DNA of 64,000 nt from a virus. The notes beneath the pieces were generated by a model that saw only the letters and a program-made list of their open reading frames with translations, searched no databases and had not been told where the DNA came from. The stretch's first letter is position 1. Every line of letters begins with the position of its first letter. A program made the translations under genes and the position numbers. The stretch spans positions 79,261 to 143,260 of IMG/VR virus record IMGVR_UViG_3300046692_000091; one strand, 5' to 3'. Below are positions 51,878 through 54,755 of the stretch, one piece after another.

Positions 51878-53995
51878 TTACCGCATCCATCCTGGAACGC
51901 GGTTGATTAGTTTGGGGAATTCGAATTGCTTACGATCAACATCTAAATCGAATTGTTCGAAAGCTTTTTGGAGAGTACCCATCATCAGACGATGTTCGTC
52001 AAACTCTTCTGGGTGTTCTTTGGAGAAGGATTCAAATGCTTCCTTCTGTTCAAACGGTGACTTGATACCTGTGATCTCTTCTACCATGGATTGTGACCAT
52101 GCCAGGATGTCTGCGGAACGAGTAGAGATGTTAGGCGCATCGCCTGTGTCGAGGACAGCAGTGAATACCACGGTTTGTGAATCTTGTCCGATACGGTAGA
52201 TACGTGCGATCGCCTGTTCCAGAATATAGCTACGGAAAGGAGAGTTCAGAATCAACATCGTGTCTGCCATGGTCAAACGCACAGCGGTTGCTAGGGAGGC
52301 ATAAGTAGCCAAGAGCGGGTTGAGTTTAGGTTCCTTATCAAAACGAGCCACAATAGATGCCAGTTCGTTAGAGGTCTTACCGTAGACTGCAATCGGAGTC
52401 ATACCAAGTTTGCGTACATGTACGTCTGATACTTCGAGGGCTTCCACGAAAGAAGTAAACATGATGGTCTTCTTTTCAGTTGACTCAACAATACCTACCC
52501 AGTCTACATGCGGAACCATTGCAACGTGGCACTCAATACGTTTACCACCCAAGATACGACCTAGTGTCTCACCTTGGATCTTCAGCATCGGATATTTAAT
52601 GGCCGACTTAACATCTCGGAATTCGTGAATCATTGACTGTGGTAGTGACGGACCGAATAGTGCCTTCTCGTATTTGTTGGTAGCCTTAATCTCTTCGCCA
52701 GTAAAGCGTGGATCAGGGTTAGCAATAACGATCTTCAGTACACGTCGATATTCATTGTAAGCAGCAATCTGATCTTTGGTACGCAGTTGTGATTCATGGA
52801 TGCGTAAGTATTCCGCCCACTTCTTATCGTCCGCAGGCTTCCGTTCTTTATAGAACTTAACTCGTTCGCGAATGAATGCCTCCATCACAACCTTAATAGC
52901 TTCCAACGTAAAGTCGTTACCATTGGGTACCTGGATCTTGTATGGTTTCATGATCGGTGGCTTGAGACCAGTATCTTCTTCAGTCTTAGCGATAAAGAAG
53001 GACATGAAACCCATTCGATGACGGATGATGTCTAAGCCCTTGCCACCTTCCTTACCAAAGATGAGTCGGAAGCGTGCTTCTACTTCCGCAGTAAACAATG
53101 GGTCAGCAACAGACATCAATGTAATAAGTTCAGCACCTAATGCTTTCACCGGTGTACCGGAAGCTAGAACGTTATCCTGGGAACCCAGTGCCTTCACACA
53201 AGCGATGTAAAGTTGCGTCTGTAGGGATTTGCCATCGTTCATGTTGTGGCATTCATCTAAAGCCGTGAAGATCCGTTTACCTTTGAATACACCAGACTGG
53301 ATAATGTCTAAAAAGTTCGATAGCCACTGATAGTGAACGATGATGATTCGTTCTCCTTTATAGGGCTGTCCAGATGAAGACGACCAAACGGATTGCTTCT
53401 TCTTATACATCTCATCCATGGACGGAACCCAGACCGTGTCTACAGCTCTCTTCTCACAGAAGAAGACCATGTGGTCCGCATTCAACATCTCACCGATAGC
53501 GGTACACATGTACGTCTTCCCGACGCCTGGCTCCGCGTGCAGCAAGTCACCAACTAATCCCCACTGGTCCAATCGAGTATTGTAGGATTTGAAGTAATCC
53601 ATTTGTTTTGGGTTAGCAGTGAACTTTAAGTTATCCAGGTTACCGAAGTCTAAACGACCAGCAGCTGATGGATCAGGTTTAGCAAAGGCTTTACCTACCC
53701 ATGTGGATTCCAGCATAGCGGCACGAATAGCAGCAGCTGTCTTCACTGAGATATAACGGGATCGGTATTGCATCACACTATCGAGAATATAAAGGAAGTC
53801 AGGAGCAAAGAACTTATAGAACCTTAACTCTGTTCCGGAAGCATGGTTAAAAATGTTAGCCGCGATCCGCGTAGTTTTCCAATGCTTGGAGATATCCCGA
53901 ACGAGATGGTTTCCGTTGATACCGGAAATGATGATTTCATTGCCCTGTTCTTTGACAGTAACGACGCCCATCAAACGTCTGAAATAGCTTTGCAT
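51878..53995 (-). CDS. SNF2/SF2-type helicase
   Basis: It is 705 aa and starts at 53995 after AAGGGT. Walker A is HAEPGVGKT (K160), motif II is LDECHN (DECH, 247-250), and the motif VI region reads QAIARIYRIGQDSQT, where the RIGQ element is typical of SNF2 proteins. These ATPases track along duplex DNA and displace or remodel bound proteins. It heads the minus-strand operon that continues with fibre-like genes, so it may be made late. I recall a similar helicase in phiKZ. Confidence 0.82.
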   Translation of the reverse strand: MQSYFRRLMGVVTVKEQGNEIIISGINGNHLVRDISKHWKTTRIAANIFNHASGTELRFYKFFAPDFLYILDSVMQYRSRYISVKTAAAIRAAMLESTWVGKAFAKPDPSAAGRLDFGNLDNLKFTANPKQMDYFKSYNTRLDQWGLVGDLLHAEPGVGKTYMCTAIGEMLNADHMVFFCEKRAVDTVWVPSMDEMYKKKQSVWSSSSGQPYKGERIIIVHYQWLSNFLDIIQSGVFKGKRIFTALDECHNMNDGKSLQTQLYIACVKALGSQDNVLASGTPVKALGAELITLMSVADPLFTAEVEARFRLIFGKEGGKGLDIIRHRMGFMSFFIAKTEEDTGLKPPIMKPYKIQVPNGNDFTLEAIKVVMEAFIRERVKFYKERKPADDKKWAEYLRIHESQLRTKDQIAAYNEYRRVLKIVIANPDPRFTGEEIKATNKYEKALFGPSLPQSMIHEFRDVKSAIKYPMLKIQGETLGRILGGKRIECHVAMVPHVDWVGIVESTEKKTIMFTSFVEALEVSDVHVRKLGMTPIAVYGKTSNELASIVARFDKEPKLNPLLATYASLATAVRLTMADTMLILNSPFRSYILEQAIARIYRIGQDSQTVVFTAVLDTGDAPNISTRSADILAWSQSMVEEITGIKSPFEQKEAFESFSKEHPEEFDEHRLMMGTLQKAFEQFDLDVDRKQFEFPKLINRVPGWMR

Positions 53996-54039
53996 GGTTG
54001 TACCCTTGTTCTTTATTAAAAGTCATAAGATTAGCCTTC
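53996..54039. other. Short spacer upstream of helicase
   Basis: AT-rich (CCTTGTTCTTTATTAAAAGT), with CATAAG on the plus strand (TATG on the minus strand), a possible late promoter for the helicase operon. Confidence 0.3.
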
Positions 54040-54230
54040 GAGGAAATAAATACTTTGTGCGTGATAATATAGACGAGGATACGTGCGGAATGCACATATC
54101 ACGAGGAGGTGATCCAGTCGTTAATCCCAACCAGGTGAGTCACCAACTATGACTGTGAAGTCACAGAGACCTAACTACGAGCCTTGTCTACTTCAGACCT
54201 CTAATGGCCACCTGCGGGTTGGCCTTTATG
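54040..54230 (+). ncRNA. Candidate structured noncoding RNA with 16S 3'-end complementarity
   Basis: No reading frame with a spaced start fits, yet the segment ends in a plus-strand terminator. CGTGATA (54060-54066) pairs with TATCACG (54097-54103), enclosing GTGC/GCAC. Next comes AGGAGGTGATCCAG (54104-54117), the exact complement of the Pseudomonas-type 16S rRNA 3' end. Two wobbles extend it to 18 bp (54121). A TGACT-GTGA-AGTCA hairpin with a GNRA loop follows (54150-54163), then the terminator. The nearest ATG is 38 nt past the Shine-Dalgarno-like part, too far for initiation. Promoter not located; transcription is inferred. Confidence 0.45.
54206..54224 (+). terminator. Terminator of the candidate RNA
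   Basis: GGCCACC-TGC-GGGTTGGCC (one bulge), followed by TTTATG. No coding gene ends before it on this strand, which is why an RNA gene is suspected. Confidence 0.65.
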
Positions 54231-54237
54231 TCCTTAC

Positions 54238-54270
54238 TCCATGAAATCTTAAATCTATATTATCGTAGTG
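54238..54270 (+). promoter_or_regulatory. phiKZ-type early promoter (variant core)
   Basis: CCATGAAATCTTAAATCTAT, then ATTATCGTAGTG; core TATATTAT at 54256-54263. Nearly identical over 30 bases to the promoter at 63919. Confidence 0.8.
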
Positions 54271-54290: not shown

Positions 54291-54755
54291 ATGTCTCATT
54301 CCGGTATGACCCAAGAACAATCTGATATTTACAAAGAACGCCTGACTGTTACTATTCCCAATGATAAAGTTGGTACAGTTAAGTTCGGTGTTGACAATGT
54401 CGATGATGTTGTCCGTGAACCATTCCCTGCTAAGTTCCATGTGCTGGACTCGGTAGACTTCATTACCTACGACCAAGTCCTGAAAGCATTCACTGACGAA
54501 GCAACCTTCTTCGGCCTGCAGTGTGTAATGCAACTGACCGGTGAGAACCAGCGGTATGTTGGTCCGGTTGACTTAGATGAAGGTGATGGTACGGTTAATG
54601 GGATCATCGTTACCCTGCCCGGTATTATCGATCCAGCTGAAGCATTCAGTCTGTACACCGAAGTACAGAAAGCTGGTCACTACATGGCTCCTGCCAGACG
54701 CTTTGGTCAGGGTGGTTGTTCATTCACCGTCTTCAAGCTTATCCCAAAGGTATAA
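54291..54755 (+). CDS. Early protein of unknown function (154 aa)
   Basis: This is the first gene behind the early promoter at 54256, with a short leader (AATAGGAAAACAAA). The protein is acidic and soluble, with beta-rich segments (DGTVNGIIVTLPGIIDP). It is co-transcribed with the gene at 54758. The function is unknown. Confidence 0.5.
   Translation: MSHSGMTQEQSDIYKERLTVTIPNDKVGTVKFGVDNVDDVVREPFPAKFHVLDSVDFITYDQVLKAFTDEATFFGLQCVMQLTGENQRYVGPVDLDEGDGTVNGIIVTLPGIIDPAEAFSLYTEVQKAGHYMAPARRFGQGGCSFTVFKLIPKV

Follow-up and report, generated by a model that had tools for sequence, protein, structure and literature searches.

A previously unannotated RNA gene lies between a divergent helicase gene and the next gene downstream in the window, by which we mean the whole 64-kb stretch of viral DNA that was analysed. 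Its sequence comparisons indicate a conserved, structured non-coding RNA that is present throughout the nucleus-forming phiKZ-like phages of Pseudomonas tested, with the exception of EL and OBP, and that carries a strand complementary to the 3′ end of host 16S rRNA. It probably represents the first family of virus-encoded RNAs acting on bacterial ribosomes through pairing with the 16S 3′ tail, which would control or protect 30S subunits across these phages and possibly has a functional analogue in phage Goslar. The features of the locus are collected in Table 1.

Table 1. Features of the RNA gene and its surroundings in the window
Feature	Position	Strand	Remarks
SNF2/DEAD-type helicase (phiKZ gp203 family), divergent neighbour	51878..53995	-	
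AT-rich RATANTATAG element, 5′ border	54058..54072	+	same place in all relatives
Structured RNA domain, proposed RNA gene (~125 nt)	54067..54191	+	model R1 110.4 bits; covariation
P1 5′ strand UAGACGAGG, closing stem	54070..54078	+	8/9 P1 pairs with compensatory changes in A5
P2 hairpin GUGC-loop-GCAC	54083..54095	+	GUGC/GCAC, GCGC/GCGC or GCAC/GUGC in relatives
16S-complementary strand GAGGAGGTGATCCAGTCGT	54103..54121	+	near-invariant in 18-19 phages
P3a 5′ strand AGGU	54133..54136	+	pairs with 54169-54172; 4/4 pairs covary
P3c GNRA hairpin UGACU-GUGA-AGUCA	54150..54163	+	5/5 pairs covary; GNRA loop in most relatives
P3a 3′ strand ACCU	54169..54172	+	covariation in A5
Linker AACUACG, P3 to P1	54173..54179	+	kept in most relatives
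P1 3′ strand CCUUGUCUA	54182..54190	+	pairs with 54070-54078
Terminator-like hairpin GGCCACC-TGCG-GGTTGGCC, then TTTATG	54206..54230	+	UUCG version in relatives
Early-promoter-like element TCTATATTAT, for the next gene, outside the RNA	54254..54263	+	TCTATATTAC conserved in relatives
Hypothetical protein, next gene downstream	54291..54755	+	no Pfam family

The 14 bases that the preliminary description had reported as exactly complementary to the Pseudomonas 16S 3′ end (AGGAGGTGATCCAG, 54104-54117, plus strand) were found as the sole exact copy in the window, and their 13-base core, GGAGGTGATCCAG, occurs once in the full 314.8-kb virus record containing the window. The second-best 16S-complementary site in the window reaches merely 9-10 exact pairs. 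An exact 14-mer is expected by chance ~5e-4 times in the two strands of 64 kb (0.48 times if up to two mismatches are allowed), and judged by its sequence the complement is not a chance occurrence. The extension to 18 bp with two G-U pairs, also claimed for it, proved slightly too short; the predicted duplex comprises 19 contiguous pairs, of which 16 are Watson-Crick and 3 are G·U. The 16S target, GGCTGGATCACCTCCTTA, is found in dozens of Pseudomonas genomes.

Conservation is concentrated in this strand. Across 18 members the core shows 96% identity, compared to 69% for the remainder of the RNA, and in Psa21, D6, and RVTF4 the same interval keeps AGGAGGTGATCCAG unchanged with different flanks, the complement being invariant in this alignment (A1) and the remainder falling to 70-80%. 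The changes at positions 2-17 of the complement are nearly all A-to-G or C-to-T, so that pairing with a U or G of 16S rRNA is kept. Breaks in the pairing are confined to the edges or to individual members, namely Phabio and L176, in which the complement is shortened or interrupted, and the predicted duplexes with 16S rRNA contain 14-20 pairs across members. Within the structured RNA the 16S complement is thus the best-conserved and, to judge from these substitutions, the selected part, as befits an RNA predicted to bind the 16S 3′ end in the antisense sense.

The reach of the complement at its two ends bears on what the RNA could do. In most members it runs past the anti-Shine-Dalgarno sequence into the 3′ strand of helix 45 (1525-1529), a position that we take from E. 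coli 16S numbering. Pairing there is beyond the need of any initiating mRNA, which could also be expected of a guide for 16S maturation or modification that pairs with the precursor or an immature 30S subunit and alters 3′ trimming or the methylation of h45 by KsgA. However, pairing with the precursor trailer is little or none (0-2 bases), and such a guide is very improbable. At the opposite end, the complement extends to the very 3′ end of 16S rRNA in phiKZ, phiPA3, PA1C, L135, and L136, which is in favour of an RNA covering the single-stranded 16S tail of idle 30S subunits against RNase R or anti-Shine-Dalgarno-cutting toxins, thereby keeping ribosomes available to the phage. In vitro, 16S rRNA and the 30S subunit are protected from RNase R by a Shine-Dalgarno oligonucleotide, although this work was on B. 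subtilis (PMC10901742), and phiKZ already inhibits host RNA decay via Dip (PMC4980113). In the clade of the window, however, pairing ends one base before the 16S 3′ end, and we regard this protective role as unlikely.

The hairpins on either side of the complement that the preliminary description had noted, P2 (which is extendable) and the GNRA hairpin P3c, are both present. That picture was nevertheless incomplete, since they are enclosed in a domain closed by the long-range stem P1. The structure tested, consisting of P1, P2, the outer arm P3a, and P3c, contains 22 pairs. When 13 members are aligned by plain MAFFT, without fitting to structure (A3), 15 of the 22 pairs show compensatory changes, 87.9% of the cells are paired, and the covariation is 0.394; sliding the structure by 1-3 columns gives no more than 0.121, and the observed covariation was not attained in any of 500 shuffles. 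The same 13 members were used to build model R1. An alignment of 19 members fitted to R1, which leans towards the structure by construction (A5), shows compensatory changes in 19 of the 22 pairs and a covariation of 0.586, compared to at most 0.114 for slid versions. The final counts are those of A5, which excludes OBP, because alignment A4 and model R2 included a false OBP match, which lies inside the coding genes OBP_254/255. Compensatory changes in excess of the controls argue for a structured non-coding RNA. Folding of the single sequence does not favour the proposed structure (z -0.24), and in unconstrained folding ensembles the unpaired fraction of the complement is only 33-59%.

Model R1 recovers members outside its training set, including PS119XW and PA1C (both 5e-20), Phabio (2e-11), L175 (2.5e-5), DT01 (5e-5), and Noxifer (6e-4), the last at the syntenic location, flanked by the helicase and the gene that follows. 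L176 gives a weak match (0.17), yet it lies directly upstream of the helicase with the same layout. Known members comprise phiKZ, phiPA3, 201phi2-1, Phabio, Noxifer, Psa21, PS119XW/PA1C, DT01, and metagenomic relatives; the RNA is also found in the IMG/VR relatives L130-L136 and in Viktualia. The complement persists even in DT01, L175/L176, and Noxifer, distant members that otherwise retain only the architecture. The distant contigs L175 and L176 carry, upstream of the helicase, an enlarged version with extra long hairpins, and they indicate how much change the RNA framing the complement can undergo. With the phiKZ copy, located between PHIKZ203 and PHIKZ204, as the query, 61 Pseudomonas phage records match, 47 of them over at least 80% of the query, and nearly never is a feature annotated at the RNA. 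Small ORFs have been annotated over it in DT01 (PA10_00263; L404, 229921-230043 minus) and Viktualia (CDS0006; L128, 5522-5611); these, one of which is antisense, are probably spurious gene calls. The original proposal depended on the block and hairpins being kept in close relatives, and they are conserved in all of these. Conservation, compensatory changes, and pairing-preserving substitutions together strongly support its idea that the phage has a non-coding RNA with complementarity to the 3′ end of 16S rRNA; the roles that it put forward, namely titration of the anti-Shine-Dalgarno sequence, altered host translation, or recruitment of 30S subunits, are putative.

Outside this group, the relatives infecting Xanthomonas, Erwinia, Klebsiella, Serratia, Vibrio, and Aeromonas show no convincing match to the models trained on Pseudomonas phages; these negatives are nine genomes from non-Pseudomonas hosts, to which EL and OBP are added. 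Two pattern matches in non-Pseudomonas relatives lie in sequence that reads as coding, and that in EL (L267) is devoid of the surrounding RNA architecture, EL giving no model match. In a scan of viral contigs for GAGGAGGTGATCCAG or GGTGATCCAG..AACTACGG, the matches are probably due to chance, in contigs that differ in size and kind. A search of Rfam 15 returned no family at the gathering threshold, the best weak match being CC2171 with 12.7 bits against the 75 needed, and ARAGORN detected no tRNA or tmRNA in the window. Elsewhere in phiKZ, positions 186396-186717 (L140, 6397-6718 minus), adjoining PHIKZ178/179, match the group I intron family (Rfam RF00028, 92 bits).

The borders of the gene are also conserved. 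The RATANTATAG element is a probable promoter or start region, inferred from its sequence and constant place. At the other border, the terminator proposed earlier is present as a terminator-like hairpin on the plus strand followed by TTTATG; it is not U-rich, because of which it was missed by the standard scan. Roughly a dozen such elements, each a hairpin followed by TTATG, are found across the window, and related phages also have them. In the copies (2507, 8519, 17977, 37798, 38119, 45420, and 54226 on the plus strand; 63859, 45400, 43671, and 18356 on the minus strand), TTATG stands directly after a GC-rich hairpin, the loop of which is often UUCG or CGAA. This element looks like the terminator of this phage group, possibly fused to the TATG late-promoter motif. 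On the side of the helicase, AAGTCATAAGATTAGC (54020-54035) is nearly invariant in relatives; its minus-strand sequence, GCTAATCTTATGACTT, contains TATG, the core of phiKZ late promoters, and it is probably the late promoter of the helicase. The element TCTATATTAT is presumably early-promoter-like, in view of the early promoters of phiKZ. A minus-strand reading, in which the RNA would mimic the 16S tail, was rejected because it is as plus-strand features that the terminator and the loops of GNRA and UUCG type are recognizable, and the same holds for the conserved upstream AT element.

As AGGAGG is a perfect Shine-Dalgarno core, the strand could in principle be an exceptionally strong ribosome binding site for a very small gene or a cis leader of the downstream gene. 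In agreement with the preliminary description, no start codon stands at the normal spacing from this strand, and no start codon or frame after the Shine-Dalgarno-like core is shared among 18 members, which speaks strongly against a translated peptide or a long leader. Moreover, the terminator and the early-promoter-like element stand before the next gene, and the neighbours and orientation vary among phages: in phiPA3 the RNA and the helicase share a strand, and the two are four genes apart in 201phi2-1 and ~28 kb apart in DT01. This variation points to an independent RNA gene rather than a leader tied to one gene, and the explanation by a ribosome binding site or leader, already largely refuted, is hardly tenable.

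We somewhat favour the reading that positions 54067-54191, with the terminator, form a small non-coding RNA gene whose product pairs in trans with the 16S tail and controls 30S initiation; from the sequence data we infer its transcription, 30S binding, and effect on initiation. P1 would close the domain, and P2 and the branched, GNRA-capped P3 arm would frame an antisense strand of 14-19 bases. Its target would be the mature 16S 3′ tail, comprising the anti-Shine-Dalgarno sequence and the lower strand of helix 45, in free or newly made 30S subunits. Such pairing would occupy the Shine-Dalgarno pocket and open the base of h45, by which the RNA could control which subunits can initiate in infection. 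The antisense complement is longer than any Shine-Dalgarno sequence of 33 phiKZ genes, in which the sites have exact matches of 3-7 nt, the strongest being predicted at -8.9 kcal/mol, and clear pairing is found in 22 of the 33. Because phiKZ genes themselves use Shine-Dalgarno sites, a plain shut-off of the host only is unlikely and a simple titration favouring the phage is weakened; blocking the anti-Shine-Dalgarno sequence would hurt phage mRNAs too, which counts against the control of initiation. A stage-specific or sub-stoichiometric action, or the protection of idle subunits, fits better than host-only shut-off.

The conservation of the GNRA arm and the linker outside the antisense strand would also be compatible with a tether, in which 16S pairing recruits the 30S subunit to a phage structure or complex, such as the nucleus surface, with P2 and P3 as protein-binding arms. 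Transcription and translation are separated in nucleus-forming phages (PMC12908238). However, this tether is without a known protein partner, and h45 pairing would impede a 30S subunit meant to work; we consider it quite unlikely.

The RNA is unmentioned in the literature searched, and a prior mention in transcriptome papers on phiKZ or other Pseudomonas phages is possible. In phiKZ, two further non-coding RNA candidates were reported from Grad-seq at 10 min; they derive from the 3′UTR of PHIKZ298 and the 5′UTR of p40 and thus from loci other than the PHIKZ203/PHIKZ204 interval (PMC8545117). Trans-acting antisense sRNAs, including phage-encoded ones, are likewise small and non-coding, with a hairpin-framed antisense strand and then a terminator, but they target mRNA, whereas the proposed target here is the 16S rRNA 3′ tail; a text search of the review found no mention of 16S or the anti-Shine-Dalgarno sequence (PMC12197685). 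phiKZ gp014 and other ribosome-targeting phage factors are likewise proposed to act on host ribosomes, but they are proteins, whereas the factor here is an RNA whose proposed target is the 16S tail in the 30S subunit (PMC10914614). The Shine-Dalgarno sequences of mRNAs pair with the same 16S bases, usually over 3-7 nt in phiKZ and near a start codon, whereas the phage RNA would form 14-19 bp and has no start codon. The archaeal Val-tRF, also a small RNA, inhibits translation and binds to the small ribosomal subunit, as the RNA here may do; unlike the phage RNA, it is a tRNA fragment that binds the decoding site (PMC11009984).

Goslar, a nucleus-forming phage of E. coli, may have an analogue, as judged from its sequence (MK327938, L402; 87361-87372, minus strand), in the intergenic region between Goslar_00077 and Goslar_00076. 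There, AGGAGGTGATCC, whose 12 nt are complementary to the 16S rRNA of E. coli, comes immediately after a hairpin and is succeeded by further hairpins and a terminator-like hairpin with TTTATGCC, with no nearby start codon; blastn finds no relatives of this locus.

phiKZ is the model nucleus-forming phage, and its takeover of translation has so far been studied through proteins. Dozens of sequenced genomes contain a conserved, unannotated RNA with the anti-Shine-Dalgarno sequence as its putative target, which suggests that the giant viruses of Pseudomonas may handle ribosomes with RNA besides proteins. If the inferred action is true, this would be a kind of phage RNA that targets ribosomal RNA itself.
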